DNA of 55,564 nucleotides from a virus. The position numbers were made by a program, and so were the translations under genes. Below, one piece after another: positions 1 to 12,533 of this stretch. Position 1 is the first letter of the stretch; every line of letters begins with the position of its first letter. The notes beneath the pieces were generated by a model, which saw only the letters and a list, made by a program, of their open reading frames with translations, did not search any database and was not told where the DNA came from. The stretch is from positions 1 through 55,564 of IMG/VR virus record IMGVR_UViG_3300034251_000009. The stretch is one strand, 5' to 3'.

Positions 1-127
1 ACCGTGCAGGCAGTCCATCATCCAACACCGTTGTGCCTGGTCAAGGCCCTTTCGGGGTGGCGTTGTCACCACGCGGCAGGTGACCCCTCTATTCGGTGGG
101 GTCCTTCACCTCGGTTGCGGTGTCACC
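1..127. repeat. Terminal direct repeat of the contig (circular overlap), left copy
   Basis: These 127 bases are identical to 55438-55564. The length equals a common maximum assembler k-mer, so this is best read as the overlap of a circular contig, not as a biological terminal redundancy. The unique genome is therefore 1-55437. The 3' end of the leftward gene at 89-682 lies partly inside the repeat. Confidence 0.95.
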
Positions 128-682
128 GCCCCAGGATGCGAACATCCGGAAGATGTCGCGGCTGTCCTTCAGCACCGACTGCCAGTCCGGGCGCAGGGGC
201 TCGACGTCGAGTTGCGTGATGCAGAAGATCAGCACCTCTTCGACCGACATCCGCCGGCCGGGCAGGTGATGCTTCTTGCTGATCACGCCCTTGTCGCTGA
301 GCTGAGTGGTGCCAAGGTGCATGTGCGGGTCCTTCACCGGCCCACCATCGGGGTGCCAGTGAAAGCCGATCACCTCGGCCTCGTCAACGCGCTGCAGCGT
401 GTGCATGTAGCCGCGGGTCGAGACCTTGTACGGCCCCTTGATCTTGTCCTCCGGGATGTGGACAATTTCGTACTGGATGCCCAGGTCAAGCGTGTAGATG
501 TCGCCGTCGCGGCGTTGCACGGGCACCGGTTCGCCGCCACTCCAGGCCAGCGAATGAACACGGCCCAGCTCTTTCCAGCCCCCATTGCTGATGATGAACG
601 GGGTCAGCGTCATGCAGGATGCGGCCCGCTGGAGGGGCTCCAGGAAGTTCGCGACCGCCTGTGATGGGCTCTTACCGGGCAA
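89..682 (-). CDS. Hypothetical protein, toxin-like partner of a two-gene module
   Basis: A 197-residue protein of unknown function. Its C-terminal half is histidine-rich and looks conserved: FHWHPDG near residue 103, DPHMHLG near 119, then KKHH and SVEEVL. From memory, pairs of this architecture are common in actinobacteria beside a small protein carrying SGEEFLxRWDAG. A related layout is seen in TumE-like toxins, but that relationship is an inference. It overlaps the upstream small gene by 11 bases and so is translationally coupled. The pair lies just beyond the presumed attP, a usual place for lysogenic cargo. No signal peptide or membrane segment is seen. Confidence 0.75.
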   Translation of the reverse strand: MPGKSPSQAVANFLEPLQRAASCMTLTPFIISNGGWKELGRVHSLAWSGGEPVPVQRRDGDIYTLDLGIQYEIVHIPEDKIKGPYKVSTRGYMHTLQRVDEAEVIGFHWHPDGGPVKDPHMHLGTTQLSDKGVISKKHHLPGRRMSVEEVLIFCITQLDVEPLRPDWQSVLKDSRDIFRMFASWGGDTATEVKDPTE

Positions 683-881
683 ACGGGATGAGCATGGCGA
701 CCTTCGTCACGGCCATGTTCTCTCGCTCGTCCTCGTACACACCGGCGTCCCAGCGGGTGAGGAACTCCTCGCCGGAGATGCTCAGCAGCCGGCGAGCGGT
801 CTTGTCGAACAGGGCCTTGCCCTCGGCGGCGCTGAGTTCGTGGACCTCGGGAACAACGTCCCCGGATGTCTTCGTCGTCAC
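672..881 (-). CDS. Small protein, antitoxin-like partner
   Basis: About 69 residues from a GTG start at 881, chosen because GAGGAGGGG lies 5-8 bases upstream; an in-frame start at 905 lacks such a site. The sequence contains SGEEFLTRWDAGVYEDE followed by VAMLIPFAR, a signature I associate with small partners of the downstream histidine-rich protein. It is first in the leftward pair and overlaps the next gene. Antitoxin role is inferred from size, gene order and coupling only. Confidence 0.7.
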   Translation of the reverse strand: MTTKTSGDVVPEVHELSAAEGKALFDKTARRLLSISGEEFLTRWDAGVYEDERENMAVTKVAMLIPFAR

Positions 882-1209
882 GCTTCCCCTCCTCTCAGTC
901 AGCATCGTGGCACGGACTGCCGTCGACAGGAAACCAACACTAGGCCCGACCTACGACATTTTCTGCCCCACGCCCCAGCGGGCCTGTCAGGCGGGTCCCA
1001 CGACTGCCAGGGCCAACGAGTCAGACCAGGCCGGATGATTGCTGCGACCGATAGCCGACAGCTGCCGCCGAAGACCAAGGTGACCTCGGTGGAGTACGTG
1101 TCCTCCGGCACCCCGCTGACCTGGCAGGTACGGTGAAGTAGACAGCAGGCCCAGATACAGCGAAGCGGCCCCGCACTCCTGATGGAGGCGGGGCCATCTT
1201 GTGTCTGGG
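882..1209. other. Intergenic region upstream of the toxin-antitoxin-like pair
   Basis: No convincing gene is seen in these 328 bases. They must hold the leftward promoter for the pair at 89-881. A motif TCGTAGG occurs on the minus strand near 948-954 and matches one arm of the palindrome in the late promoter at 36543-36562. A terminator-like hairpin lies at 1167-1195. Confidence 0.5.
1167..1195 (-). terminator. Hairpin terminator of the leftward CYTH operon
   Basis: GGCCCCGC at 1167-1174 pairs with GCGGGGCC at 1188-1195, and inside it CTCC pairs with GGAG around a TGAT loop, leaving one bulged A. It starts 15 bases beyond the stop of the gene ending at 1210. There is no strong U tract on either side, so it may be a weak or processed end. 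Confidence 0.6.
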
Positions 1210-1578
1210 CTAGTCGATAAGTCCGAGGTCCCACCGGCCCGTATTGATCGTCTCGTGCTTGCCGAAACCGACCCACCTGCCGGCCAGGCGACGGCCGTCC
1301 GGGTCCGCGAGGAACTGCAACGCGCCGTGGAACCGGGCGCCGGCGTAGTGACCGCCCGGATCGGTGATCTCGGACCAGGTGCCCGTGATCACCCGGCCGT
1401 CGATCACCAGCGACATAGTCAGGGACGACGGAGCGCTGGGGACGGACCGGACCGTGAGCCGGTCGCCGTCCTGCTCGATCCGCACCTGATGCACGCCGGT
1501 GAACTTCGCATCACGACTGGTCGAGTGGTACTCGTAGACGCTGGCCCAGAGGCCTGCGTAGTTCTGGCCGGGTTCCAC
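1210..1578 (-). CDS. Small beta-rich hypothetical protein (lipocalin-like length)
   Basis: 122 residues from a GTG at 1578, preceded by GGAGG at 5-base spacing. The sequence alternates short polar and hydrophobic strands with GTW, GRW and GRWVGFGK turns, which suggests a small beta barrel; this fold call is only a pattern impression. It is the last gene of the leftward XRE-CYTH operon. No cysteine, signal peptide or catalytic motif is visible. Function unknown; the context suggests ligand binding or a role with the CYTH enzyme. Confidence 0.7.
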   Translation of the reverse strand: MEPGQNYAGLWASVYEYHSTSRDAKFTGVHQVRIEQDGDRLTVRSVPSAPSSLTMSLVIDGRVITGTWSEITDPGGHYAGARFHGALQFLADPDGRRLAGRWVGFGKHETINTGRWDLGLID

Positions 1579-1591
1579 GATGACCTCCTGG

Positions 1592-2152
1592 CTACGACCG
1601 CTGGCGGGCCGCGCGGACCGCGTCGGTGTACAGCTCGTTGGTGAGCTCGCCGTCGGCGACACCCAACTGGTGAAGCACCGACCGGACCGCCTTCAGCGCC
1701 TCGGCTACCTGGTCCTCCTCGGCCATGGTCTCGACCTCGAGGAACGTGCCGTCGATCTCCGGCACGCGGACGAGGGTGGCCAGGAAGTGCCGGCCGTCGC
1801 CGGTGAGCTGGTAGTTCTCGCAGTCCTTGGTGAGCTCGACGACCGGCGCGTACCCGAGGGCCTGGACCATGTGCGTGACGGCGTCGGGCGTGGCCACGGT
1901 GGTCTCGTGCTCGGGCTTCGACCCGGACGCCTCGTCGACGACAGGCTCCTTGAAGGTCAGCAGGTGCCGCACCGTGTCCGGGGTCTCGACGGTTCGAAGG
2001 CGCAGCTCCCGGCCTGCCGCTTCGAGGGCGCCGTCGGGGGTGTCGAAGTAGGTGTCGTGGTAGACGGCCTTCTCCGGGTCGGCGCGCTGGTCGAGGGCTG
2101 CGCGGACAGCGTCGGGGTTCTCCAGACGGGCCTTCAGCTCGGCTTCGATCAC
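1592..2152 (-). CDS. CYTH-domain protein (triphosphate tunnel metalloenzyme; class IV adenylate cyclase-like)
   Basis: 186 residues from GTG at 2152 with GAGGAG six bases upstream. The N terminus carries the CYTH signature ExExK (E3, E5, K7). Further charged residues expected along the tunnel follow: RELRLR, LTFKEP, EHET and FLEVETM. The family hydrolyses triphosphates or cyclises ATP using divalent metal; the substrate cannot be predicted. It overlaps the end of the XRE gene upstream only slightly in position, with a short gap, so both are probably co-transcribed. CYTH genes are unusual in phages and this one is best regarded as lysogenic cargo, possibly nucleotide signalling or defence. Confidence 0.88.
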   Translation of the reverse strand: MIEAELKARLENPDAVRAALDQRADPEKAVYHDTYFDTPDGALEAAGRELRLRTVETPDTVRHLLTFKEPVVDEASGSKPEHETTVATPDAVTHMVQALGYAPVVELTKDCENYQLTGDGRHFLATLVRVPEIDGTFLEVETMAEEDQVAEALKAVRSVLHQLGVADGELTNELYTDAVRAARQRS

Positions 2153-2162
2153 GACTGTCTCC

Positions 2163-3008
2163 TCAGATGACGCGGCGGGCGTGGTCGTGCAGGTCTTCGA
2201 ACTGGCGCCGGTAGCCGGCCCAGAACGCACCGCGGGGCGTGTGCGGGATCTCGTAGATCGTGGACTCGTGGCCTTCCCACTTCGCGTCGAAGGACGACAC
2301 CCAGGCCAGGTCGTCGATCCGGAAGTACCGCCACACGGGCACGCGGTCGTAGAGGCTCACCTCCAGGTCGACGTTCGGGGCGAGCTCGCGGACCTCTTCG
2401 AGCCGGGCCAGCGCCAGTTGGATGCCTGCGGCGAACGAGGCTGGCGATTCGCCAATCTCCGATGCGCGTCGCCGGGCGGCGTCGCTCTCCGGTTCGAGCA
2501 GCAGGACGCGTACTTGCAAGGGCTTTTTGCGGGCGAGCAGCGACGGGCGTAGCAGGCTGTCGTTCAGCCCGATGATGCCGAGGGCGCGTACGGCCAGGAT
2601 GTCTAGCTGGCTGGCGTCGCTGGCACGCCGTCGGATCTCAGCGACGACTGGCCCCTGGTGGGGATAGTGCCGGGTGATCTCGGTAGTGCCGCTGGCGTAC
2701 TTGCTGTTGGGGTTACGAGGCGAGAGCCCGAGGGCCATTCTGCACAGGTCCGGCATGTTGAGTCCGTCAGCGATTCTCGTGAGGACGTCGAGCTGGGTTA
2801 CGGCCTTTTTCCCGTTGATGATCTCGCTGATTCGACCTTGGGTGATGCCGGTTGCCCCGGCTATCCGCAGCTGGCTCGCGCCGCCGTACTGCTGAGCGAA
2901 CTTCAGCAGGCCAGACACGTCGCGGTTGCGGATGATCTCAGCGGTCTCGGGTCTTTGCCACGCCCAGTCGGCGATGCGTATCTGGTCGTGGAGCGACGCT
3001 ACGGACAA
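2163..3008 (-). CDS. XRE-family HTH regulator with C-terminal effector-like domain (DUF5919-like)
   Basis: 281 residues. An HTH lies near residues 45-75 (QLRIAGATGITQGRISEIINGKK, read in pieces). The C-terminal part from about 165 has VRVLLLEPESDAARRRASE and ends in FWAGYRRQFEDLHDHAR, the pattern I associate with actinobacterial XRE proteins carrying a DUF5919, phospholipase-D-like fold. It begins the leftward XRE-CYTH-small-protein operon. A perfect palindrome at 3038-3054, just upstream of the start, is a candidate for autoregulation. It is distinct from the immunity repressor at 52870. Confidence 0.85.
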   Translation of the reverse strand: MSVASLHDQIRIADWAWQRPETAEIIRNRDVSGLLKFAQQYGGASQLRIAGATGITQGRISEIINGKKAVTQLDVLTRIADGLNMPDLCRMALGLSPRNPNSKYASGTTEITRHYPHQGPVVAEIRRRASDASQLDILAVRALGIIGLNDSLLRPSLLARKKPLQVRVLLLEPESDAARRRASEIGESPASFAAGIQLALARLEEVRELAPNVDLEVSLYDRVPVWRYFRIDDLAWVSSFDAKWEGHESTIYEIPHTPRGAFWAGYRRQFEDLHDHARRVI

Positions 3009-3037
3009 GACGAACCCCCACTCAATCCACTGCCGAG

Positions 3038-3054
3038 TATCTCACCTTGAGATA
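3038..3054. promoter_or_regulatory. Palindromic operator candidate upstream of the XRE gene
   Basis: TATCTCA at 3038-3044 and TGAGATA at 3048-3054 form a perfect inverted repeat with a 3-base spacer. It sits 30 bases upstream of the XRE start codon. No other feature explains it, and an autoregulatory site is the simplest reading. Confidence 0.6.
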
Positions 3055-3110
3055 GCCAGCGGGGGATCGAATGAGGACTGTTCGTTCACGACCGTGGAGG
3101 CATGGATCTC

Positions 3111-3566
3111 TTAGGCCACCACGTCGGGTCGCATACCCAGCTTTCGGTGGGCAGCGTCCATCTGCTCCGTCGTCGGCCGAGCGGGCAATTTGGCGCCCGG
3201 CTCGCGAAGGAACCACCCCAAGAACTGGCGCAGAACGTCTGTTCGCGTCAGGCCCATGGCCGCAGCCGCAGCCCCGAACTCGTCCCAGAGGGCATTGCTC
3301 ACCCGCAGCGATCTGATAGGCGTCTTCCCGCGCTTCTGTACGTTGCGCAGCGCCCCCTCGGTTCGGATGGCCTCGGTTTCCTCTGCGTCGGCAGTGGCTC
3401 GACTCTCGTGCCAGACGACCTCGATACGGGCCTGCTTGCTCCACCAGTCGGCATTCTTCTCGTGGTATCGCCAGCGAGTCATCAGATCCACAGTGATGCC
3501 GACGTAGATCAGGTTGTCCCCGGCGTCGAAGAAGCGGTAGACCGCTGTCCTCTCGTTCTCCGTCAT
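3111..3566 (-). CDS. GIY-YIG nuclease-domain protein with C-terminal ribbon-helix-helix-like region
   Basis: 151 residues. Residues 8-45 show a divergent GIY-YIG core: VYRFFD, then IYVGIT, then a basic TRWRYH. The C-terminal region around 85-120 (RSLRVSNALWDEFGAAAAAMGLTRTDVLR, read in pieces) looks like a ribbon-helix-helix DNA-binding segment. The architecture suggests a DNA-targeted nuclease or a regulator with a nuclease-like domain. The start overlaps the upstream HTH gene by four bases (ATGA). It lies directly opposite the rightward transfer-like module, so a regulatory or mobility role for that module is possible. Confidence 0.8.
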   Translation of the reverse strand: MTENERTAVYRFFDAGDNLIYVGITVDLMTRWRYHEKNADWWSKQARIEVVWHESRATADAEETEAIRTEGALRNVQKRGKTPIRSLRVSNALWDEFGAAAAAMGLTRTDVLRQFLGWFLREPGAKLPARPTTEQMDAAHRKLGMRPDVVA

Positions 3567-3817
3567 GCCTCTGACACCTTCTCGTCGCCTGCCCGGCTAC
3601 CCAGCTTGCGGTTCAGGGTGGCGCGATTCAGCCCCGTGATCCGGCAGAGCTGGGTGTCAGGCACACCGGCCTCACGGGCCTTGCGCGCCTTCTCCCAGAT
3701 AGCCTGTTCGGCTGCCTGGCTGACCTGGTGGGCGTGCTCGATCGCTGCGTTCACCTCGTCGAGCAACTTGCGCTGCTCATCGGTACCTCGCCAGGTCGGC
3801 CGGATCACGGTTGGCAC
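3563..3817 (-). CDS. Small HTH DNA-binding protein
   Basis: About 84 residues if started at the GTG at 3817, which has AGGGGAG upstream; an in-frame ATG at 3895 would add 26 residues but lacks a ribosome site and overlaps the divergent promoter. The C-terminal half has VPDTQLCRITGLNRATLNRKLG, a typical HTH of the resolvase/invertase type. It overlaps the GIY-YIG gene by four bases. Its position facing the rightward promoter makes it a candidate repressor of the module starting at 4004. Confidence 0.75.
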   Translation of the reverse strand: MPTVIRPTWRGTDEQRKLLDEVNAAIEHAHQVSQAAEQAIWEKARKAREAGVPDTQLCRITGLNRATLNRKLGSRAGDEKVSEA

Positions 3818-3851
3818 GTTATCACTCCCCTGTCTCGCGGTCTGTCTTCTG

Positions 3852-3880
3852 TTGACACACTCTCTGTCGGGGGTTACTGT
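3852..3880 (+). promoter_or_regulatory. Rightward sigma-70-type promoter of the transfer-like operon
   Basis: TTGACA at 3852-3857, exactly 17 bases of spacer, then TACTGT at 3875-3880. The next rightward gene starts at 4004, giving a leader of roughly 115 bases. The -10 box is part of the palindrome at 3875-3890. Confidence 0.75.
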
Positions 3881-3890
3881 CTCATCAGTA
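3875..3890. promoter_or_regulatory. Operator candidate overlapping the rightward -10 box
   Basis: TACTG at 3875-3879 and CAGTA at 3886-3890 form a perfect inverted repeat with a 6-base spacer over the -10 region. Binding would block rightward transcription. The divergent HTH gene at 3563-3817 is the obvious candidate regulator. Confidence 0.55.
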
Positions 3891-4003
3891 GACATTAACC
3901 GTCAAGGTCAGTGGAACGAAGAACGACCGGAAACGAAGGCGGGCCCGGCAGGTGTGTCAGCACCTGTTACCCGGACCCTTGATCGCCCCATGGAGGCGAC
4001 CCG

Positions 4004-4297
4004 ATGAACATTCTTGCAGTAGATACCTGCCCCCGGTGGTGTTCGGGCGCCCATCTTCCGTCGCCCGACGGCCCCGTCCACATCAGCGTCGACCAGACCC
4101 TGGTTGCCACTTCCCCGTGCGGGATGGAGTCGACGGAGGTTTACGTCGCCGTCGAGCAGGTCGGTAGCGGCCCGGCTGCGGTCCGCCTCGAAGGTGCGGG
4201 TTCCGCGCCGATGACGCCGGCGCAGGCGATGCAGTTGGCCGCGACGTTGCAGGCAGTCGCGTTCGCCGCGGTGGCCGGGGAGCGGGTGACCCGATGA
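4004..4297 (+). CDS. DUF6907-like hypothetical protein
   Basis: 97 residues. The N terminus CPRWCSGAH followed by an alternating-strand region and VRLEGAGSAPMTPAQAMQLAATL matches the pattern of DUF6907 proteins, common on actinobacterial plasmids and integrative elements. It is the first gene of the rightward operon. Its stop overlaps the next start (ATGA). No enzymatic role is known. Confidence 0.8.
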   Translation: MNILAVDTCPRWCSGAHLPSPDGPVHISVDQTLVATSPCGMESTEVYVAVEQVGSGPAAVRLEGAGSAPMTPAQAMQLAATLQAVAFAAVAGERVTR

Positions 4298-4590
4298 CCG
4301 CGACGCTGACCGAGACGCTGTACACCCGGCCGATCCCGTTCGTCCGGGAGGCGGCCCAGCCGGGTGACTGGATCAACGTGGCGAACGACGACCGTCCGCC
4401 GTACTGGCAGACCCTGATCGCCGTGGTGGCCTGCGAGGACTCCCCGGTCGACGAGGGTGACTGCGAGGGTGACTGCGCGTTCGTGCTGCACCTGGAGGCG
4501 GACCCGGGCGAATACGACGTCGAGTGGTGGCACGTGTCCTGGAGCGAGTTCGACGGCATCCAGACCAGCCTCCCGGCGGTGGCCCGATGA
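4294..4590 (+). CDS. Hypothetical protein, acidic
   Basis: 98 residues, acidic, with an EGDCEGDCAF segment encoded by a tandem 12-base repeat at 4453-4476. The C-terminal half (WWHVSWSEFDG) looks like a small beta structure. ATGA overlaps with both neighbours place it firmly in the operon. Function unknown. Confidence 0.75.
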   Translation: MTATLTETLYTRPIPFVREAAQPGDWINVANDDRPPYWQTLIAVVACEDSPVDEGDCEGDCAFVLHLEADPGEYDVEWWHVSWSEFDGIQTSLPAVAR

Positions 4591-4736
4591 TCGCCACGTT
4601 CCTGCTGAATTTCCTGCTCGCCGCGGTCGGCCTGACCGTGATCGTGGCCCCTCTCGCGGTGTACGCGCTGCGGGAGCTGGCGCCGGCGTCGCAGCCCCGC
4701 CGCTCGTTCGCCCTGGCCGGGGGTGGGCGGCGATGA
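4587..4736 (+). CDS. Small single-span membrane protein
   Basis: 49 residues. One hydrophobic helix covers about residues 2-26, followed by a basic, glycine-ending tail. Start chosen at the ATG that overlaps the previous stop (ATGA). Such small membrane proteins commonly accompany Spd-like genes in actinomycete transfer operons. Confidence 0.7.
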   Translation: MIATFLLNFLLAAVGLTVIVAPLAVYALRELAPASQPRRSFALAGGGRR

Positions 4737-4981
4737 GGGCCCGTACCCGCAACATCTTGACCGTGGTCTCGCTGGTCTACATCTCGGCGGTCGCCTACCT
4801 GTTCACCGTGCTGTCGTTGCGGACGTTCAACGCGCTGCTGGCGACGGTGGTGGTGCCGCTGGTGTGGCTGGTGTGGTCGTTCTGCCGCTGGTCGGCGCAC
4901 CAGCATTCGGAGCGGTGGGCTCGTGACATCGAGAAGGTCCACGGCAGCCGGCCGGTGCGTCAGGGGGTGACTGCCCGATGA
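4733..4981 (+). CDS. Small two-span membrane protein
   Basis: 82 residues. A basic start (MRARTR) is followed by two hydrophobic segments at about 9-28 and 34-52 and a polar, charged tail. ATGA overlap on both sides. Probably an inner-membrane partner of the SpdB-like protein encoded next; specific function unknown. Confidence 0.72.
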   Translation: MRARTRNILTVVSLVYISAVAYLFTVLSLRTFNALLATVVVPLVWLVWSFCRWSAHQHSERWARDIEKVHGSRPVRQGVTAR

Positions 4982-6213
4982 CGATCACCGACAGCGGGCG
5001 CCTGTCCGAGCAGGAGATGGCCAAGGCGCGGGAGTTGTACGCCAGCGGGGTCAGGTCGAAGGACGGTCTGCGCAAGGGCCTGGGCGTCGCGTGGGCCAAG
5101 GCAGTCGAGGCTCACACCCGGCTGACCGCCGAGGACGACGAGCGCCGGCGGCAGCAGGTCGAGGAGCGCCGGTCGCGGCTCGTGAAGTTGCGACCACGGA
5201 AGAGCCGGGCGTCGCGTCTGCCGGTCCGTCGCACACCTCTTCCGGAGGCCCCGGTCTCTCCTGCTGTCGAGGCGGTCCCTGAGCTGTTGTCTCCGACCGC
5301 CGAGATGGTTCCGGTAGAGGTGCCGACTCCGGATTCGGTAGCCGTTCCGGCCTCTACTGGAGGCGCTGGTTCGGTGAAGCCGACGACGATCGTGGCGTTG
5401 GTCCTGTCGATCTCTGCAGCTGCGGTCATTGGCGTGTCCGCCCCGGCTTTGCTGGCCCTTTCCGGGCGGGCCGCGGTCGCTGCCGCAGCCGTGGCGGTGC
5501 TCGCTTTGGTCGGCGCGGTCTGGTCGACGGCGACCTTGGCCCGGGCGCTGGTCGCCGGTCGCACGGCGCGGGACGTGGCGCTGGACCTGGCGTCGTGGGC
5601 CGTGGCGGCCGTGGCGGGGTTCCTGGCCGCGTATGGGCAGGTCAAGTTCGCTGAATGGGCGGGCGTGACCGGCTGGGAGAAGTGGCTTGTTCCCGGCATC
5701 CTCGAGCCGGCCGTGGTCGTGCTGTTGCTGCTGGCGAACCGGCGGGTGAAGCGGCGCCGGGCCGGGTTCCCGGCCAAGCCGATCGGCAAGTTGCTGGCCC
5801 TGGCGGCTCTTCTGGGCGGGTTCGCCGTCTACACCAATGTGGTTCACACCGGTGGCAAGGCCGGGCTGGTGTTCGGCGCCGCGACGGTCGTGGGTCTGAT
5901 CCTGTGGTGGGTCAAACTCCAGGACGATGCGGCCCCTGACGACTGGGATGACGCCCCGCAGTCCAAGCGGCTCTCCCGGAAGACCTCCCGGTACCGGCTT
6001 CTGCGCTGGTTGATCCTCTTCCCGCAGACCCGCCGGGCGTGGCTGATCAGCCTTGATCACTCCATCTCCGACGCGGAGGTGGGTTTGGATCTGGCGCGCC
6101 GCTGGCGGCGGTCTTTCGACGAGTCCCGAGACGCCGGTGAGAGTCGCCGTAAAGCTCGCCGGGACGCATCCGTGCAGGTCGACAAGTACCTGCTCAACGA
6201 GAAGGAGAGCTGA
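4978..6213 (+). CDS. SpdB/DUF2637-like transfer membrane protein
   Basis: 411 residues. The N-terminal 50 residues (SEQEMAKARELYASGVRSKDGLRKGLGV, read in pieces) look like an HTH; then comes a basic, proline-rich linker to about 130. Several hydrophobic helices follow at roughly 137-157, 164-188, 198-220, 232-252 and 263-300. A basic cytoplasmic tail ends in LLNEKES. This architecture matches DUF2637/SpdB proteins of actinomycete conjugative plasmids and AICEs, which support plasmid spread in mycelium. It is unusual in a phage and, with the downstream translocase, defines a transfer-like module. Confidence 0.8.
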   Translation: MTITDSGRLSEQEMAKARELYASGVRSKDGLRKGLGVAWAKAVEAHTRLTAEDDERRRQQVEERRSRLVKLRPRKSRASRLPVRRTPLPEAPVSPAVEAVPELLSPTAEMVPVEVPTPDSVAVPASTGGAGSVKPTTIVALVLSISAAAVIGVSAPALLALSGRAAVAAAAVAVLALVGAVWSTATLARALVAGRTARDVALDLASWAVAAVAGFLAAYGQVKFAEWAGVTGWEKWLVPGILEPAVVVLLLLANRRVKRRRAGFPAKPIGKLLALAALLGGFAVYTNVVHTGGKAGLVFGAATVVGLILWWVKLQDDAAPDDWDDAPQSKRLSRKTSRYRLLRWLILFPQTRRAWLISLDHSISDAEVGLDLARRWRRSFDESRDAGESRRKARRDASVQVDKYLLNEKES

Positions 6214-6214
6214 G

Positions 6215-6346
6215 GTGGCCTACTGCAACAGGTGTTGTGCCCCGATTGCGTCGACGGGTTGGTGTTTGGACTGCCTGGAGGATCTCGACAAGTTGATGAC
6301 CAAGCGGCGCAAGAACAAGAAGCAGAGAACGACGAGGGAGAACTGA
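6215..6346 (+). CDS. Micro-protein with two CxxC-type pairs
   Basis: 43 residues from a GTG two bases after the previous stop, preceded by GAAGGAGAG. Cysteine pairs CNRCC and CLDC are spaced like a small zinc ribbon, followed by a very basic tail (KRRKNKKQR). Too short for confident family assignment. First of eleven micro-genes. Confidence 0.65.
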   Translation: MAYCNRCCAPIASTGWCLDCLEDLDKLMTKRRKNKKQRTTREN

Positions 6347-6347
6347 G

Positions 6348-6494
6348 ATGGCTCTGTCGAAGAGTGCCGCCGAGAAGGTGGCCAAGGAGAAGGAGCGGGC
6401 GTCGCTCGGGATGGGCGATTCGCCGGCGAAGGCGGCCCGGTACGCGCAGGAGGTGCGGGCGTACGCCCGCCGCGAGCGCGAGAAGGGCAACTGA
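6348..6494 (+). CDS. Basic micro-protein
   Basis: 48 residues, rich in Lys, Arg, Ala and Glu, predicted to be mostly helical (AAEKVAKEKERASL, then AARYAQEVRAYARRERE). Starts one base after the preceding stop with a GGGAG site. Possibly nucleic-acid binding; function unknown. Confidence 0.65.
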   Translation: MALSKSAAEKVAKEKERASLGMGDSPAKAARYAQEVRAYARREREKGN

Positions 6495-6495
6495 G

Positions 6496-6678
6496 ATGGC
6501 ACGCACGACCGGCTGGGACGGCAAGCCGCTGTCCGAGGCGGACAAGAAGTTCTTCGCCCTGCGTCGATCGGGCTACGAGGGCCCGATCGACCAGGACGGC
6601 AACAAGGCGACCAAGGGTGAAGCCGCGGACATCCTGCGGAGCATGGCCCGGCGCCGCGGTGAGAAGACCGACTGGTAA
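6496..6678 (+). CDS. Hypothetical micro-protein
   Basis: 60 residues (MARTTGWDGKPLSEADKKFF at the start), ending in ARRRGEKTDW. It has a defined charged helical pattern and starts one base after the previous stop. No known motif. Confidence 0.7.
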   Translation: MARTTGWDGKPLSEADKKFFALRRSGYEGPIDQDGNKATKGEAADILRSMARRRGEKTDW

Positions 6679-6767
6679 CCGGCGACGGGCCGGGAGTGGA
6701 GTCCCGGCCCGTCTCTATCAACCCCGAGGCCGCGTGGCGGCGGCCCGAACTACAGGAGGAACCAATC

Positions 6768-6890
6768 ATGTCGCAGCAGGCGCTGGATCGCCAGCACGAC
6801 GAGATCAAGGAGCGGAACCGTCAGCGGCGGCTGGCGACGATGCAGGAGGCGGCGAAGCAGGCCGAGGCCCGTGCGGCCAAGCGCCGGTGA
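6768..6890 (+). CDS. Helical basic micro-protein
   Basis: 40 residues, almost wholly charged and helical. Start chosen at 6768 because AGGAGG lies eight bases upstream; a longer in-frame reading from 6696 lacks such a site. The stop overlaps the next GTG (GTGA). Confidence 0.65.
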   Translation: MSQQALDRQHDEIKERNRQRRLATMQEAAKQAEARAAKRR

Positions 6891-6991
6891 GCCCGTCGCT
6901 GGCGCGCCGCCTGGAGGCCAAGGAGGCCGCACGGCGCGCGGAGCACGAGAAGGCGCAGAAGCGGATCGAGGCTCGGGCGAAGGCCGCCTGA
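6887..6991 (+). CDS. Helical basic micro-protein, 34 residues
   Basis: Starts at a GTG overlapping the previous stop and encodes an Ala/Lys/Arg/Glu helix ending in ARAKAA. Its last codons are part of the 44-base direct repeat. Very short; supported by tight coupling and composition only. Confidence 0.5.
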   Translation: MSPSLARRLEAKEAARRAEHEKAQKRIEARAKAA

Positions 6992-7019
6992 GCAGGCAGA
7001 ACGGAGTGAGTGAGATGGC
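6976..7019. repeat. 44-base direct repeat, copy 1
   Basis: Identical to 7249-7292. It covers the 3' end of the 34-codon gene, the intergenic ribosome site (ACGGAGTGAGTGAG) and the first five bases of the gene at 7015. Confidence 0.95.
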
Positions 7020-7194
7020 AGGCAAGAAGTACACGGTCGAGATGACCAACAACAACGGTCAGAAGGTTCCCATCACGCAGGTTCCGTTGGAGGGAGGCGT
7101 CGCCCGGGACCTCGCCGAGAAGATGCGCAAGCAGCTGCCGGCGGGATCGAGCGCCTACTTCGAGGTGCACGACGCCAAGGGCGGCAAGCGCTGA
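7015..7194 (+). CDS. Hypothetical small protein, beta-rich
   Basis: 59 residues. Unlike its helical neighbours it reads as a compact domain: KKYTVEMTNNNGQKVPITQ, then a helix ARDLAEKMRKQL, then SAYFEVHDAKGGKR. The last 18 bases (AAGGGCGGCAAGCGCTGA) are identical to the end of the gene at 7288-7428, and both genes share the 44-base repeat at their starts. Function unknown. Confidence 0.75.
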   Translation: MAGKKYTVEMTNNNGQKVPITQVPLEGGVARDLAEKMRKQLPAGSSAYFEVHDAKGGKR

Positions 7195-7205
7195 CGGTTT
7201 CCGTG

Positions 7206-7234
7206 GGTGCCCGGATCGAGCGGGTTCGGGCACC
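7206..7234. repeat. Stem-loop between micro-genes
   Basis: GGTGCCCG at 7206-7213 pairs with CGGGCACC at 7227-7234, leaving a 13-base loop. It lies in the only sizeable gap among the micro-genes and could be a processing or attenuation element. There is no U tract. Confidence 0.5.
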
Positions 7235-7248
7235 GGTGGTAACCGCCA

Positions 7249-7292
7249 GGCGAAGGCCGCCTGAGCAGGCAGAACGGAGTGAGTGAGATGGC
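7249..7292. repeat. 44-base direct repeat, copy 2
   Basis: Identical to 6976-7019. Here the upstream coding function is lost and the copy serves as leader and start of the gene at 7288. Confidence 0.95.
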
Positions 7293-7428
7293 GAAGGACG
7301 CACAGAAGGCCACCGGCAAGACCACCTCCGAGAAGGGGACGTCCGGGCCCGAGGAGGTCCGTCGGCTGCACCCGGGACAGCGGTGCGGTACCGGGTGCTT
7401 CCCCCAGCAGAAGGGCGGCAAGCGCTGA
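7288..7428 (+). CDS. Micro-protein sharing both ends with its neighbour
   Basis: 46 residues. The start lies in copy 2 of the 44-base repeat and the end is the same 18 bases as the gene at 7015-7194, but the interior (RRLHPGQRCGTGCFPQQ) is unrelated. The stop overlaps the next ATG. Function unknown. Confidence 0.65.
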   Translation: MAKDAQKATGKTTSEKGTSGPEEVRRLHPGQRCGTGCFPQQKGGKR

Positions 7429-7580
7429 TGGGCAAGACGACGACGGAGCTCGGCGACGACGGCCGGCCGGTGACGTACAAGTCGACCAGGGCGCGCCGTA
7501 AGAGCGAGTCGCGGCTGATCCCGCTCACGCCGGGCCCGCAGACACGCCTGCAGAGGATCGTCCGGGCGGCGGTCGGCTGA
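7428..7580 (+). CDS. Basic micro-protein
   Basis: 50 residues starting MGKTTTELGDDGRPVTYKST and continuing strongly basic (RARRKSESR). Overlaps its neighbours by one base at each end (TGATG). No known domain. Confidence 0.65.
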   Translation: MGKTTTELGDDGRPVTYKSTRARRKSESRLIPLTPGPQTRLQRIVRAAVG

Positions 7581-7741
7581 TGGGCGCGCAGAACTGCCGG
7601 GTGTGCGCGCGGAGCACGGCCTGGTGCGAGTGCTCGAAGGCCGTCAGGGCCTCACAGGGTCAGCCGACGCAGGGTCCTTCCGAGAACTTCCTGCTCAAGG
7701 AGCTGAAGCGGAGCAAGACCGAGAAGAGGGGAAAGCGCTGA
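7580..7741 (+). CDS. Micro-protein with N-terminal cysteine cluster
   Basis: 53 residues. Cysteines in CRVCARSTAWCEC suggest metal binding; the C-terminal half is basic and ends KRGKR. Its stop shares one base with the next ATG (TGATG). Function unknown. Confidence 0.65.
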   Translation: MGAQNCRVCARSTAWCECSKAVRASQGQPTQGPSENFLLKELKRSKTEKRGKR

Positions 7742-7875
7742 TGGGGCCGATAGGGCTGTTGTGCTGGCTGTTCGGCCACAAGGACCGGCCGCACTACGCG
7801 GCGACACCCCGGCGGCGGCTGCTCGGAGTTCAGTGCGACCGCTGCCTGCGGGTCGATCGCACGGAGGAGAAGTGA
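7741..7875 (+). CDS. Small zinc-ribbon-like protein
   Basis: 44 residues. CWLFGHK and, after a short spacer, CDRCLRVD give a C-x4-H plus CxxC arrangement, a pattern I recognise in small actinobacterial and phage proteins of unknown role. Overlaps its neighbours by one base (TGATG). Confidence 0.7.
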   Translation: MGPIGLLCWLFGHKDRPHYAATPRRRLLGVQCDRCLRVDRTEEK

Positions 7876-8036
7876 TGGGACGCAAGGAAGACGTCAAGGC
7901 GTTCAAGGACGCCAAGGCCAAGCAGGACGCGTACGTCGAGGGTCTGCCGAAGGGCAGCCCGGAGACCGCGAAGTACCTGGAGCTGAACCGCAAGACCAGC
8001 GCGGCGCTGGAGAAGCTGCCCTGGTACCGCCGGTGA
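7875..8036 (+). CDS. Hypothetical micro-protein
   Basis: 53 residues with regular helical charge pattern (KAFKDAKAKQDAYVEGL, then AKYLELNRKTSAALEKLPWYRR in pieces). Last of the micro-genes before the hairpin at 8052-8084. Function unknown. Confidence 0.68.
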   Translation: MGRKEDVKAFKDAKAKQDAYVEGLPKGSPETAKYLELNRKTSAALEKLPWYRR

Positions 8037-8051
8037 TCCGGTAACACCGGC

Positions 8052-8084
8052 GGGCGCGACCGAGATAGCAGCTCGGTCGCGCCC
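8052..8084 (+). terminator. Perfect 13-bp hairpin between the micro-genes and the translocase gene
   Basis: GGGCGCGACCGAG at 8052-8064 pairs perfectly with CTCGGTCGCGCCC at 8072-8084 around a 7-base loop, followed by CTTCCCCTTG. It looks like an intrinsic terminator with a weak U tract. No promoter is visible between it and the translocase start at 8115, so it may act as an attenuator setting translocase level. Confidence 0.75.
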
Positions 8085-8114
8085 CTTCCCCTTGCACACA
8101 GAGGAGCACCCAGC

Positions 8115-9854
8115 ATGGCAGAGCAGAAGGACGAGCACAGCCTCGGTGAAGTGTTGTGGCGTTACGTCGCAGGGCGCCCCCTGGATGGCCGCGACGGATA
8201 CCCGTACCTGCGCGCGGGGGCCGGCCTCGTGGCAGGCTGGCAGCGGCAGGCGTGGCGTCTTGTCGTCCCGACGGCGGGTGTTGCGACTGCCATGGACCCT
8301 GACTTCCAGCACGTCACCGGCGTTGGCGGTCTCGCTCTGCTCGCGGCGGTTAGGGGCCGCCAGCAGGTCGTCCGGCGGCGGTTCCACCGTGAGTACATCG
8401 CCCCGACGTTGGCTGCGATACAGCCGCCGCTGGGGATGCAGGGCGATGGCGTGACCCTGTACGTGGATGCGTCCCTGGGCAACCTGACCCCTCGGCTGGC
8501 CAAGCCGTTGTCGCCGGCGGAGGAGCGTCTGCGCGTCCTCTACGGCGAGCGGATCGAGCCGGTCGTGCGGTGGTTGCCGGAGCAGATACAGCGTGGTCTG
8601 TGGGCGGTGCAGCGTGCGGCACGGCCGGCGACATCGCGCATGGAGGTGTTCCGGCGTCCGGGTGAGCAGTTGGGTCCGCGTATCGAGCTGGTCGCGCGGA
8701 CGCCGTATCTGACCAGTGAGCAGCGGCTGCTCGTGTCGTCGATCATCAACAGCAAGATTCCGGTGTCTGACCTGGTGGAGTCGTGGCATCAGGTCGGCCC
8801 GAAGGTGACCGCCCGGTGGGTCGTGCGTAAGCGGCCGCCGTCGACCGTCGGGTACGACCTGGTTCTGGAGCACATGGCCCATCTGAAGGAGTGGGAGTTC
8901 TACATCGGCCAAGGTGCCGGGAACCGGCCGGTGGTCATCTCGCTGAAGGACGACTCTCCGCACATCGCCGTCAGCGCAGGTACCGGCGCCGGGAAGAGCG
9001 TGCTGGCCATGCTCATCGCGGTGCAGATCCTGGCTCGCGGTGGCGAGGTGCTGATCCTGGACCGCAAGGGCTCTCATCGATGGGCACTCGGCATGGAGGG
9101 CGTGGACTACTGCACGAAGGCCCACCAGATGCACGAGGCGCTGATCAAGTCGGCCGCGGAGGCAGATCAGCGCAACGACGATGCCCTGCACGAGGAGGAG
9201 GACTGGGATCCGGGCAAGCGCAAGCTGGTGATCTGCGAGGAGCTGAACGCGACGATCGGTCAGCTGAACAACTACTGGGCGGAGATCCGGGAGAAGAGCG
9301 ACCCGAAGAAGTCGCCGGCGGTGTCGGCCCTGGCTGATCTGCTGTTCATGGGTCGTTCGGCGAAGTACAACGTTCTGGCGATCGCTCAGATGCTGACGGC
9401 CCGGGCGATCGGCGGGCCGGAGGCGCGGGAGAACTTCGGGGTGCGGTGTCTGGCCCGGTACACCTCGAACAACTGGAAGATGCTGGTGCCGGAGGCTGCG
9501 ATGCCCCGGTCGTCACGGACGCTGGGCCGGTGGCAGGTAGTAATCGGTGGGCAGGCTACTGAAGTTCAGGTGGCCTTCCTGACGAACGCGCAGGCTCGCG
9601 CCCTCGGAAATCCGCGAAAAGACCCTGATAGCGCCCTGGGCAGCAATGTCCCTGGGGACGGGGACATGATGACCTTGCGGGACGCGATCGATGCCGGTGT
9701 TTTGCCCTGGTCGTACGAGGCGGCCAAGAAGCGGCTGCAGCGCGATGTCGGTAACCCACCGTCATCGCGCGGGAAGCGGGCCAACGCGGATCTGTACGCG
9801 CGCGCCGACCTGGCGGCGTGGGTGGTCCGGTCCCGGCAGGAGGTTCCGTCGTGA
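8115..9854 (+). CDS. FtsK/SpoIIIE-family DNA translocase, TraB/Tra-like
   Basis: 579 residues. Walker A is GTGAGKS at about 289-295, in SAGTGAGKSVLAML. A Walker B-like KLVICEE lies near 370-376. FtsK-like features include a hydrophobic LILDRKGSHRWAL after Walker A and AQMLTARAIGG downstream. The N-terminal 250 residues are not classical FtsK and contain only weakly hydrophobic stretches. The C-terminal 60 residues (DAGVLPWSYEAAKKRLQRDVG, in pieces) may form a winged helix for DNA recognition, as in Streptomyces TraB, which moves double-stranded plasmid DNA between mycelial cells. Next to an SpdB-like gene this supports a transfer role. No relaxase or Rep gene accompanies it. Confidence 0.85.
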   Translation: MAEQKDEHSLGEVLWRYVAGRPLDGRDGYPYLRAGAGLVAGWQRQAWRLVVPTAGVATAMDPDFQHVTGVGGLALLAAVRGRQQVVRRRFHREYIAPTLAAIQPPLGMQGDGVTLYVDASLGNLTPRLAKPLSPAEERLRVLYGERIEPVVRWLPEQIQRGLWAVQRAARPATSRMEVFRRPGEQLGPRIELVARTPYLTSEQRLLVSSIINSKIPVSDLVESWHQVGPKVTARWVVRKRPPSTVGYDLVLEHMAHLKEWEFYIGQGAGNRPVVISLKDDSPHIAVSAGTGAGKSVLAMLIAVQILARGGEVLILDRKGSHRWALGMEGVDYCTKAHQMHEALIKSAAEADQRNDDALHEEEDWDPGKRKLVICEELNATIGQLNNYWAEIREKSDPKKSPAVSALADLLFMGRSAKYNVLAIAQMLTARAIGGPEARENFGVRCLARYTSNNWKMLVPEAAMPRSSRTLGRWQVVIGGQATEVQVAFLTNAQARALGNPRKDPDSALGSNVPGDGDMMTLRDAIDAGVLPWSYEAAKKRLQRDVGNPPSSRGKRANADLYARADLAAWVVRSRQEVPS

Positions 9855-10102
9855 GTGGCGGCGACCTGTCGGGGTTCTTGATCGGCTTCGTGTCCGGTGC
9901 GGTCGTGTTCTGGCAACTGTCGCGGGTGTCCGAGCGGTTCCGTCGGGCCCGGCGGGACCTACGCGCGGCGCGTAAGGGCATCCGGACGCTGATCGAGATG
10001 GTCATCAGCCGTGGGTGGCAGGCCGTGAAGCTGTGGCTGTTGGTCACCGCCGTCCTAGGCGTCGTTGTCGCCGCCTGGCTCGGCAGCCGATCCGGCAAGT
10101 AA
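9851..10102 (+). CDS. Two-span membrane protein downstream of the translocase
   Basis: 83 residues from a GTG overlapping the translocase stop (GTGA). Hydrophobic helices at about 6-24 and 60-78 flank a strongly basic loop (RFRRARRDLRAARKGIR). Coupled translation and position suggest a membrane partner of the cytosolic translocase. Last gene of the rightward operon. Confidence 0.75.
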   Translation: MSGGDLSGFLIGFVSGAVVFWQLSRVSERFRRARRDLRAARKGIRTLIEMVISRGWQAVKLWLLVTAVLGVVVAAWLGSRSGK

Positions 10103-10137
10103 GAGAAGGTCGAGAAGCGCTGACCCACGACAAAAGG

Positions 10138-10173
10138 GCCCCGCCCCACGCCGGAGAAGGCATAGGGCGGGGC
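10138..10173. terminator. Bidirectional terminator between the converging operons
   Basis: GCCCCGCCC at 10138-10146 pairs with GGGCGGGGC at 10165-10173, with an inner GCC/GGC pair. TTT follows on the plus strand and the AAAA at 10132-10135 gives a U run for leftward transcripts. It ends both the rightward transfer-like operon and the long leftward late operon. Confidence 0.85.
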
Positions 10174-10258
10174 TTTGATCTCTATCTCTGCTGGTCAGAT
10201 AGGCAAAGCCGCTGAGAGCGCCGCTGAGCCAAGATCTGGGCAGGCCTGGGGTGATGGG

Positions 10259-10612
10259 CTACGCCCGATCGGCGGTGAAGGCCCGCTGAGCGGCCGCCGA
10301 GGCGCCGACGGGCTTCCACAGCCCGAAGTGCACGACGGCCGCGATCGCGAAGTTGACGGCGATGCTGATGGCCACCGGTACGAGCGCGAAGTCCACCGCG
10401 GTGTTCTCGGCCTGGAGCCACGCCTCGAGGAAACTCTTGATCGCGGCGGCGGCGAGCAGCAGCACGGCCTTGACGCCGGGGCTGGTCGTCCGGGTGGTGA
10501 CGATCCCGACGAGCAGCGGGAGCAGCACGGTGACGGCGAGGCTGAGCAGGCCGCTGATGCTGGACGGGTCGAAGCCGTAGACGGGCAGAGCGGGGATGTC
10601 GGACTCGGTCAT
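10259..10612 (-). CDS. Holin-like membrane protein
   Basis: 117 residues. A short polar N terminus (MTESDIPALPVYGFD) is followed by three hydrophobic helices at about 18-40, 46-66 and 73-98, and a basic tail. Size, topology and location at the end of the lysis region fit a holin or a similar lysis membrane protein. It is the last gene before the bidirectional terminator. Assignment is by architecture. Confidence 0.65.
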   Translation of the reverse strand: MTESDIPALPVYGFDPSSISGLLSLAVTVLLPLLVGIVTTRTTSPGVKAVLLLAAAAIKSFLEAWLQAENTAVDFALVPVAISIAVNFAIAAVVHFGLWKPVGASAAAQRAFTADRA

Positions 10613-10698
10613 GACGGTGCTCCGATCTTGGAATTCAAGGGGACGGCCCGAAACCTGAATTCGGAGCCGGACGGTTCAGGCCGACGTACATTCGCCGG
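10613..10698. other. Divergent intergenic region in the lysis cluster
   Basis: Short region between the leftward holin-like gene and the rightward gene at 10699. It has an imperfect inverted pair, GAATTCAAGG at 10631-10640 and CCTGAATTC at 10654-10662, and a TACATT at 10687-10692 that could be a -10 box for a nearly leaderless transcript of the gene at 10699. No good -35 is seen. Confidence 0.4.
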
Positions 10699-11028
10699 AT
10701 GGACCGGATCGACCTGACGCACGAGTTCGGCGTCGACCGGCAGCGGGCCTGGCGGGACCGGCCCACCGCGGCGTCAAACCTGCAGCGGGTGGTGTTCGGC
10801 CGGCTGGCTGACGGCCGCTGGTTCGCCGATGCCGGCGACCGCGAGGGCGCGTACGTGTTCAACGCCGACGAGCGTGGCGAGCAGCTGGCGTTGCGGCTGG
10901 CGTACCGGTGGATGCGCGAGTCGGGCCGGCGGTGGTTCGCGACGCCGGCGGCGTACGACAACCGGTCGGAGCCGGTCGACGGGTTGCCCTGGGTGCGCCG
11001 CGGCGGTGAGTGGTTCCTCGAGGACTGA
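10699..11028 (+). CDS. Hypothetical protein, rightward in the lysis region
   Basis: 109 residues, rich in Trp, Arg and Asp (RAWRDRP, LADGRWFADAGD, WMRESGRRWFATPAAYDN, WVRRGGEWFLED). It looks like a compact soluble domain and uses the same GC-rich third positions as neighbours. Orientation is opposite to the surrounding late genes, so it is likely expressed at another time, for example in lysogeny. No family recognised. Confidence 0.7.
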   Translation: MDRIDLTHEFGVDRQRAWRDRPTAASNLQRVVFGRLADGRWFADAGDREGAYVFNADERGEQLALRLAYRWMRESGRRWFATPAAYDNRSEPVDGLPWVRRGGEWFLED

Positions 11029-11068
11029 GAAGCCCGAGTCGGCGTACGAGGGGTGGAACACTGTGCGG

Positions 11069-11332
11069 ATGACCGATGCGGCCGCCAGTAGTGAACTGCC
11101 CAGCCCGATGTACGTCACCCTGCGCTGGGACCGCTACCCGACCTGGCCATCAGCAGCCATCGGGTCGATCGTCGACAACCTCGACGAGGCGACTGCAGGC
11201 GCTCAGCTGGAGACGGAGAGGGCTCAGGCCCGCGGTTCTTCCGCGCGGTTCACGGTTCACGCAGTGCAGTGGCCCCCGTTGCACGACACTGCCGAACGGC
11301 ACGCCCGAGAATTACACAGGGGTAGTTCGTGA
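11069..11332 (+). CDS. Hypothetical protein
   Basis: 87 residues from ATG at 11069; an in-frame GTG at 11063 with GAGGGG upstream is an equally good start. The sequence MYVTLRWDRYPTWP followed by an amphipathic helix and SSARFTVHAVQWPPL suggests a small alpha/beta domain. Follows the gene at 10699 by 40 bases. Function unknown. Confidence 0.6.
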   Translation: MTDAAASSELPSPMYVTLRWDRYPTWPSAAIGSIVDNLDEATAGAQLETERAQARGSSARFTVHAVQWPPLHDTAERHARELHRGSS

Positions 11333-11415
11333 TCTTCGGCCCGGGTCGCAGGTAGCGTCGCCGGGGTGGAGCCCGTGGTGGAGAGCGCGCTGCAGACCCC
11401 CGGCAGACGCTGCCA

Positions 11416-11967
11416 TCAGCCGTCTAACTTATCCTTGCGGTACCTTTCACGCTTGGCGGCTCTCATGCACTCGCGACAACGCTTGCCTTTGCTGTCGCGA
11501 TAGGTGTTTTCAGCATCGAACCTATGCCCGCGCTTACACTCCGTCTTGAATCGGGATCGCTTCCCGAACTTTTCTTCTTGCTTTTCTCTTTCGCGATCGG
11601 CGTGGCACTTTCGGCAGCTTCTAACGTATCCGCGCCGCGAGCCTGGTCGAGGCTGGCGATAGGTGTTCTCCTCATCCCACGGGTGACCCCTCCTGCAGGT
11701 TCTGGCAGGCTCCGGCAGGGCCGGTCGCTTCTCCCACCGACGTCTGCGCAGGTTCTCCTCGCGGCTCACATCCTCAAGATGCGCCGGTGATGCGCATGCA
11801 GGCTTACGGCACAGGTGATCTACCTCGCCAGCGGGCGGCCCCACGAAAATCTCGTACATCGTTCGGTGCACGAATTTGGTGGTCCCGTTGTACCAACTCC
11901 TGCCGTACCCGTGCAAATGCGGACCGGTCCATATTAGGCAAGGTCCGATCAGCGGCCGTCCGAGCAC
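11416..11967 (-). CDS. HNH homing endonuclease
   Basis: About 183 residues from a GTG at 11967. The HNH core is VHRTMYEIFVGPPAGEVDHL, followed by CRKPACASPAHLEDVSREEN. Downstream are two repeated CxRGH...ENTYR zinc-finger-like units (CRRGHPWDEENTYR, CKRGHRFDAENTYR) each with CRxC, a hallmark of free-standing phage HNH proteins. The N terminus (CLIWTG) lacks the usual leader, so the start may be off. The gene and its flanks are noticeably lower in GC than the rest of the phage, indicating recent acquisition. Confidence 0.88.
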   Translation of the reverse strand: MLGRPLIGPCLIWTGPHLHGYGRSWYNGTTKFVHRTMYEIFVGPPAGEVDHLCRKPACASPAHLEDVSREENLRRRRWEKRPALPEPARTCRRGHPWDEENTYRQPRPGSRRGYVRSCRKCHADREREKQEEKFGKRSRFKTECKRGHRFDAENTYRDSKGKRCRECMRAAKRERYRKDKLDG

Positions 11968-12217
11968 GTCGTGAGCTGTCGGTGCCGGATGAATGATAAG
12001 TCTTGCCGACAGCCGCTCAGCGGGGGATGGTCTATGTGTAGAGATACCAATAGTCTATCAGTTGAATGCGCTATACGAATTGACTTGATGACTACCTACA
12101 AAGACTCAACGCAGGCTTCCTGAACGGCACGACGGTGGTGCACGACCGGGCGGTCATCGCCGTCGTGCAGCGGGTCCTCGGCGACGCGATGGCGACCCTG
12201 GAGCCGGCCGACGCTGC
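11968..12217. other. AT-rich flank of the HNH insertion
   Basis: From about 11990 to 12110 the sequence is AT-rich (for example TCTATGTGTAGAGATACC) and holds no credible gene. From 12084 the plus strand carries the 3' remnant of the split gene. The boundary of the insertion is probably between 12080 and 12115. Confidence 0.5.
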
Positions 12218-12460
12218 CTAGGGTGTTGAATCCGGCAGGGCCAGGCCGTCGGCCCGTTCGCGGACCAGTGCCGAGATCACGCTCGGGGGCAGCGGGAACG
12301 ACGGACCGCGGTCGATCTCATCAGCCATCATCCGCAGTGCCGCGGCGACCCCCGCTCCGACGATCTCGTCGCGGTGGACAGTGCCGAGATCTCGACCGAT
12401 CCGCGAAATGGCAACGTCTTCGATCGCCTCAGCGGCGGCCGTGATCATATCGTCGGCCAT
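12218..12460 (-). CDS. Hypothetical protein
   Basis: 80 residues beginning MADDMITAAAEAIEDVAISR, with an alanine-rich helical middle (AGVAAALRMMADEIDRG) and a proline-containing end. ATG at 12460 has GAGGGG upstream. A 17-bp palindrome at 12478-12494 lies immediately upstream. Its 3' end overlaps the stop of the rightward remnant by a few bases. Function unknown. Confidence 0.7.
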   Translation of the reverse strand: MADDMITAAAEAIEDVAISRIGRDLGTVHRDEIVGAGVAAALRMMADEIDRGPSFPLPPSVISALVRERADGLALPDSTP

Positions 12461-12477
12461 GGAACCCCTCGATTGAT

Positions 12478-12494
12478 AGATGAACTGTTCATCT
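12478..12494. promoter_or_regulatory. 17-bp perfect palindrome upstream of the gene at 12460
   Basis: AGATGAAC at 12478-12485, a central T, and GTTCATCT at 12487-12494. It is 18 bases upstream of the start codon and is best read as a dimeric regulator site. The GAAC...GTTC spacing does not match the actinobacterial LexA box. Confidence 0.55.
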
Positions 12495-12533
12495 GGTCAC
12501 GGATTTGTGGTCGTTGACGCAGCCTGACGGTGG

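Follow-up and report, generated by a model that had tools for sequence, protein, structure and literature searches.

Eleven micro-genes fill a variable slot between SpdB-like and DNA translocase genes in a predicted temperate actinophage

What are eleven tiny open reading frames (ORFs) doing between the gene of an SpdB-like membrane protein and that of a DNA translocase, and are they genes at all? The question arises in IMG/VR virus record IMGVR_UViG_3300034251_000009, whose full 55,564 nt we analyzed and call the window. Judged from its sequence, the window is a temperate actinophage: it encodes an SPP1-type portal, a DNA polymerase A (PolA), a Prim-Pol, a holin and a serine integrase, the last at its right end. 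Phage lysis genes adjoin the array. The portal has 41–44% identity to Arthrobacter and Streptomyces phage portals among its best matches. Given these phage genes, the SpdB-like (DUF2637) and HerA/DUF87 genes that border the array were interpreted as a phage-borne transfer module of plasmid/AICE-like type. The IMG/VR relatives of the module also lie within phage records, with portals in G002, G005 and G008 and terminases in G007, G762, G764 and G765. The genes that define this setting are as follows.

4978–6213, plus strand: SpdB-like membrane protein, 411 aa (Pfam DUF2637), upstream border of the slot
8115–9854, plus strand: HerA/DUF87-type DNA translocase, 579 aa (Pfam DUF87; pRL2-11 family), downstream border of the slot
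10259–10612: holin, converging on the module
32077–33489, minus strand: SPP1-type portal

The SpdB-like protein matches DUF2637 with 23.8 bits against a cut-off of 22.8 and has hydrophobic windows at residues 132–175, 234–237, 271 and 294–297; used as a query against viral contigs, it gave no match. The translocase matches DUF87 at 1.3e-9, is TraD/CedD-like by NCBIfam and is related in tblastn to Streptomyces plasmid pRL2-11/Tra genes. Since Pfam does not assign it to the FtsK/SpoIIIE type, the name TraB can be applied to it by analogy only.

The region between the two border genes (6215–8036) is filled by eleven plus-strand ORFs of 34–60 codons with plausible starts, listed here together with the hairpins that punctuate them.

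6215–6346, plus strand: m1, GTG start, 43 aa, CxxC...CxxC zinc-ribbon-like, basic; orphan
6348–6494, plus strand: m2, 48 aa, basic, modeled as a two-helix hairpin; same-slot homologues in L009, L070 and L072
6496–6678, plus strand: m3, 60 aa, conserved family with the core LRxSGYxGPIDQDG
6684–6713, plus strand: 12-bp perfect GC hairpin closing m1–m3, terminator-like, no T-run
6768–6890, plus strand: m4, 40 aa, basic; homologues in L086, L087, L088 and L091
6887–6991, plus strand: m5, GTG start, 34 aa, basic; orphan; 4-nt overlap with m4
7015–7194, plus strand: m6, 59 aa, basic; orphan
7196–7244, plus strand: GC hairpin with a 12-bp core stem, closing m4–m6
7288–7428, plus strand: m7, 46 aa, CxxxC, basic; orphan
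7428–7580, plus strand: m8, 50 aa, basic; same-slot homologues in L096 and L004
7580–7741, plus strand: m9, 53 aa, CxxC...CxC, basic; orphan
7741–7875, plus strand: m10, 44 aa, DUF1660-like zinc knuckle, basic
7875–8036, plus strand: m11, 53 aa, basic; orphan
8052–8084, plus strand: 13-bp perfect GC hairpin between the array and the translocase gene, with counterparts in relatives

The initial annotation had described eleven tightly coupled micro-ORFs at this place, and they are indeed present. From the SpdB-like gene through m11, 8 of 11 junctions fall between −4 and +1 nt: SpdB/m1, m1/m2 and m2/m3 are spaced by 1 nt each, m4/m5 overlap by 4 nt, and m7/m8, m8/m9, m9/m10 and m10/m11 overlap by 1 nt each. 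The three loose junctions (m3–m4, 89 nt; m5–m6, 23 nt; m6–m7, 93 nt) qualify the statement that the genes are mostly coupled, as the array falls into three segments, m1–m3, m4–m6 and m7–m11, with a strong GC hairpin after each of them.

To evaluate coding potential, we trained a codon model on the long genes of the phage and ran a gene caller on both strands, with dinucleotide shuffles as the control. In all eleven ORFs the own-frame codon log-odds were positive (+3.3 to +27.5, lowest for m1, m9 and m10) and exceeded those of the other five frames, whose scores lay around zero or far below it; the long ORFs on the opposite strand scored −40 to −74. The codon-model caller returned exactly 11 genes in the array region, as compared with a mean of 0.13 in the shuffles. 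Tight chaining is weaker evidence, the observed chain length (five) being matched in 5 of 500 shuffles. By these statistics the eleven ORFs are coding-like and are regarded as real tiny genes. Evolutionary support comes in addition for m2, m3 and m4 and, more weakly, for m8. AT skew reaches +0.24 to +0.29 over positions 6001–8000, mirroring Lys-rich codons; in the rest of the window it stays around zero or drops below it.

Clustering of 69 slot proteins together with shuffled decoys, none of which scored at E<1e-3, assigned 4 of the 11 micro-proteins to families that recur in the slot of other loci: m2 with L009, L070 and L072, m3 with eight others, m4 with L086, L087, L088 and L091, and m8 with L096 and L004. 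These relatives come both from phages and from Micromonosporaceae elements integrated in the chromosome. The upstream border there is either a DUF2637/SpdB-like protein or another multi-span membrane protein, and the DNA translocase on the other side, of hexameric type, belongs to one of two unrelated families. Homologues of m4 sit between the SpdB-like gene and the m3-like or translocase gene. Profile HMMs built without the window sequence recovered m2 at E=6e-18 and m4 at E=5e-9 (best shuffled decoy 0.066), and m8 aligns with its L096 relative at 64% identity over 50 aa without gaps. The m3 core LRxSGYxGPIDQDG comprises 13 invariant columns in nine sequences, which include two unannotated copies on mycobacterial plasmids. 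These two m3-like ORFs (LRASGYxGPIDQDGN; L068 and L069) lie at NZ_CP012886.2:114023–114148 and NZ_MF600313.1:176101–176223. In most of ten loci that we read in detail the m3-like gene adjoins the translocase gene, the typical order being SpdB-like, m4-like or other small gene, m3-like and translocase; in L090 and L092 the m3 motif stands at the head of a longer protein. At E<=0.01, members of the family turned up in 13 of the 354 Micromonosporaceae genomes searched. A search of 396 genomes sampled evenly across its phylum gave no match, which, in view of the Micromonosporaceae count, reflects sparse sampling. Queries with the ten other micro-proteins found nothing by tblastn in phage and plasmid collections, and a DNA-level search of plasmids returned noise only. 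No support was found for m6 being a homologue of the slot protein in L049 or of KYPNGD family members.

Conservation of reading frames in relatives, with dN/dS as its measure, had been suggested as a check on the array. Frames are kept for m2, m3, m4 and m8, while the other seven ORFs are orphans. For m3, dN/dS is 0.25 against L059 (P=0.001) and 0.09 between L060 and L061, values that point clearly to purifying selection. Similarly, m2 is probably under purifying selection, with a dN/dS of 0.35 against L009 (P=0.0065) and 0.14 between L070 and L009, yet the synonymous excess against L070 was not significant. The value for m8 (0.78) was not significant either, and its support is homology only. 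At least four micro-protein families can thus be named (m2, m3, m4 and m8), whose conserved cores are open to testing, and the families of the array are new. Two further observations concern the same loci. In about ten Micromonosporaceae loci (L119–L134, L063, L084) a protein of 60–110 aa of the form CxxCPxL...E(Q/E)PTMPR... recurs immediately ahead of an FtsK/EccC-like translocase, and it makes up a further slot family. Non-homologous proteins of the same operon in L083, L085, L086, L087, L089 and L091 have a common acidic C-terminal tail (DDADEF/DADEM), found in 10 of 123 genes in six m3-like loci, whereas two other sets of loci showed it in 0 of 286 and 0 of 332 genes; this tail may be a shared tag for docking or recognition.

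The same slot was seen in L004, L006, L007, L010, L059, L070, L072 and L096, and its content varies widely. The number of micro-genes ranges from 0 to 11, with 0–2 in most loci, and the window has the largest filling found. In 14 of 17 readable Micromonosporaceae loci the SpdB-like gene runs directly up to, or into, a homologous translocase gene, and no micro-gene lies between them. Among phage relatives, L004 and L059 have four micro-genes each, and L006, L007 and L010 have one each; L072 has five overlapping small genes. A second large array, of nine micro-genes, occupies the slot of L096, a Micromonosporaceae genome. The translocase of L059, L072 and L096 is a different one of 686–706 aa, FtsK/EccC-like where tested (L059, L096). 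Around this second translocase type, 40 Micromonosporaceae loci had 0–4 small genes, most commonly one, by automatic counts that carry some gene-border error. The array had been called unusually dense, which holds against the 0–4 of these 40 loci; with nine genes in L096 and five in L072 it is not unique, however, and eleven marks the high end of a slot whose size varies, not an isolated case. L096 also has four more micro-ORFs (43–60 aa) after its translocase gene (L096:9716–10383), and so has small genes on both sides of it. In L072 an ORF of 149 aa, HNH-endonuclease-like by eye, separates the array of five genes from the translocase (L072:6358–6807), in the place that a hairpin takes elsewhere.

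Hairpins before the translocase gene, scored by either of two methods, were found in most of the micro-gene loci tested. Close counterparts (GGGCGCG...) of the 13-bp hairpin of the window occur in L004, L049, L059 and L096, and other long stems in L002, L003, L006, L007, L010, L012 and L070. As the hairpins have no T-run, we infer a terminator function rather than read it from the stems themselves. An Rfam search gave no match in the array region, and no sigma-70-like promoters were found. The array also contains an exact direct repeat, which is likely the trace of recombination within it.

6976–7019, plus strand: 44-bp direct repeat, copy 1, from the 3′ end of m5 to the start codon of m6
7249–7292, plus strand: 44-bp direct repeat, copy 2, exact, before and into m7

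An 11-bp perfect inverted repeat within m3 (6563–6591) is one of four perfect stems of at least 10 bp in the window. We considered it as a conserved DNA site like sps and rejected this, because relatives use other codons for the same residues and do not have the full stem.

All eleven micro-proteins are basic, with a pI of 9.2–11.6 and 17–29% Lys+Arg. Across loci, 25 of 28 slot proteins have a pI above 9, as compared with 30 of 74 other small proteins of the same loci (P=1e-7), and the excess holds when the window is left out (P=2.5e-4); slot proteins of neutral or acidic character also occur in other loci (L010, L063 and those with DDADEF-type tails). The description of the products as basic peptides and small cysteine-pair proteins agrees with these data, cysteine pairs being present in m1, m7, m9 and m10. 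A helical structure is predicted for at least one, m2, which AlphaFold2 models as a two-helix hairpin (pLDDT 82). The m3 model is a helix-loop-helix (pLDDT 79), for which a fold search against the PDB gave nothing better than E 4.5. Searches of the micro-proteins with Pfam, NCBIfam, PHROGs and PADLOC gave nothing usable beyond a borderline DUF1660 match for m10 (21.5 bits against a cut-off of 21.4). The suggestion that the peptides assemble a membrane complex finds no support, since none of the eleven has a membrane-type hydrophobic segment; the membrane part is the SpdB-like neighbor. KGGK/KGGN C-termini could be a protein tag, which we do not claim, because the same codons give a Shine-Dalgarno-like AAGGG before the next start.

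Taken by position, partner genes, diversity and the basic character of the products, the array may serve the transfer module of this temperate phage as an expanded, modular set of spread-like accessory genes, a reading to which we give an even chance. The small soluble basic proteins would be interchangeable helpers that bind DNA or the translocase, and they would act on DNA together with the SpdB-like protein and the translocase, in the role that spd genes have on Streptomyces plasmids, by binding, loading or condensing the DNA of the element or by fitting the pump to host factors. The hairpins could limit translocase expression, so that the micro-proteins would be made in excess over the translocase, and the array may grow as blocks of micro-genes recombine, the 44-bp repeat then being a recent trace. 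Several findings count against this reading: the translocase is of the HerA/DUF87 type and not of the FtsK/SpoIIIE type of characterized TraB, no clt-like cluster of 8-bp repeats turned up near it, L009 and L072 have no simple hairpin directly before the translocase, and 7 of the 11 ORFs are orphans, among them m1, m9 and m10 with weak codon scores.

The main rival holds that the genes are anti-defence or host-takeover cargo, moron-like, that merely rides along in a transfer operon expressed early, with every small basic product blocking a host factor or a defence system. It explains the turnover of small, mostly orphan genes, and the blocks that each end in a hairpin and the position beside phage lysis genes suit it. 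As for the marks of a moron, namely its own promoter and terminator and absence from close relatives, the slot content varies among relatives and hairpins are present, while a sigma-70-like promoter was not among the signals detected. Unlike free cargo, m2, m3 and m4 are tied to the SpdB/translocase slot in phages and chromosomal elements alike, and none of the nine micro-proteins scanned matched PADLOC, though its models cover defence and not anti-defence. On balance we consider the cargo explanation unlikely, but a serious contender. The two remaining alternatives are less likely than cargo. That the peptides coat or condense phage or element DNA, as the initial annotation proposed, would fit the basicity of all eleven and of slot proteins in general; invariant acidic and aromatic residues in cores such as that of m3, however, are more like a specific binding surface, and the cysteine pairs of several proteins and the neutral or acidic slot proteins elsewhere also speak against coating, which appears improbable. 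That most of the ORFs are spurious products of a GC-rich genome, only m2, m3, m4 and m8 being real, is in our view very improbable despite the seven orphans and the low scores of m1, m9 and m10, as the own frame is positive and best in every ORF, the ORFs tile the region, the caller separates it from shuffles and the independent nine-gene array has the same layout.

The array also marks out a recurring genomic slot, bounded by a membrane protein and a DNA pump, whose genes turn over and are smaller than most annotation pipelines register. What spd genes do at the molecular level is a long-standing question (PMC4170104), for which the slot offers natural combinatorial variants as test material. 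A further proposal is that temperate actinophages carry a working conjugation-like module, with an SpdB-like channel, a hexameric translocase and an exchangeable array of micro-protein cassettes that set specificity, by which prophages could spread through the hyphae of the host free of virions, as a second route. We regard this as doubtful at present; if the module works, actinobacterial phages and conjugative elements would share a transfer machine and virions would be dispensable for prophage spread.

Among known systems, AICEs share the serine integrase and Prim-Pol with the window, which differs by its SPP1-type portal, DNA polymerase A and holin; the phage structural genes set it apart from an AICE. 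The plasmid pRL2-11/DUF87 Tra proteins of Streptomyces are homologous to the window translocase (39–46% identity over ~50–60% of its length). In the plasmid collection, m3-like sequences occur on the two mycobacterial plasmids only, and the other ten micro-proteins are unmatched. FtsK/SpoIIIE-like genes of phages have already been catalogued (PHROG 1358 and 3551; Streptomyces phages Gilgamesh and Dagobah), but no record of the phage collection matches the micro-proteins of the window. Dagobah, an isolated phage, has an ORF annotated as hypothetical protein (MT711977.1:43904–44695; L038) that is 33% identical to the window translocase. With DUF1660 prophage zinc-knuckle proteins the array shares one gene in eleven, m10, which passes the cut-off by 0.1 bit.

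The closest comparison is with the spd loci of Streptomyces plasmids and AICEs (pSVH1, pIJ101, pJV1; PMC4170104, PMC3218068). The spd genes vary greatly, are often confined to a single plasmid and are needed, 3–6 of them, for pock formation; SpdB2 of pSVH1 forms oligomers, binds DNA and has TraB and Spd79 as interaction partners (PMC4170104). The window is alike in its small, diverse, often unique genes, which adjoin a translocase gene on the same strand, and in the SpdB-like membrane protein of the locus. It differs in lying in a phage with structural genes, in having eleven proteins of 34–60 aa instead of 3–6 spd genes and in being split by hairpins. Its translocase matches DUF87/HerA and not the FtsK/SpoIIIE type of TraB (PF01580), which some other slot-bearing loci do match. 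A further mark of an spd locus is that its inactivation lowers spread within the mycelium, seen as pock size. A search for clt-like clusters of 8-bp translocase recognition repeats, made over 8-mers of any sequence, found none with at least 4 copies within 250 bp in positions 1–12500. Because of the translocase type, we do not file the array as an spd locus. Nevertheless, it resembles a spread locus in layout and may work likewise.
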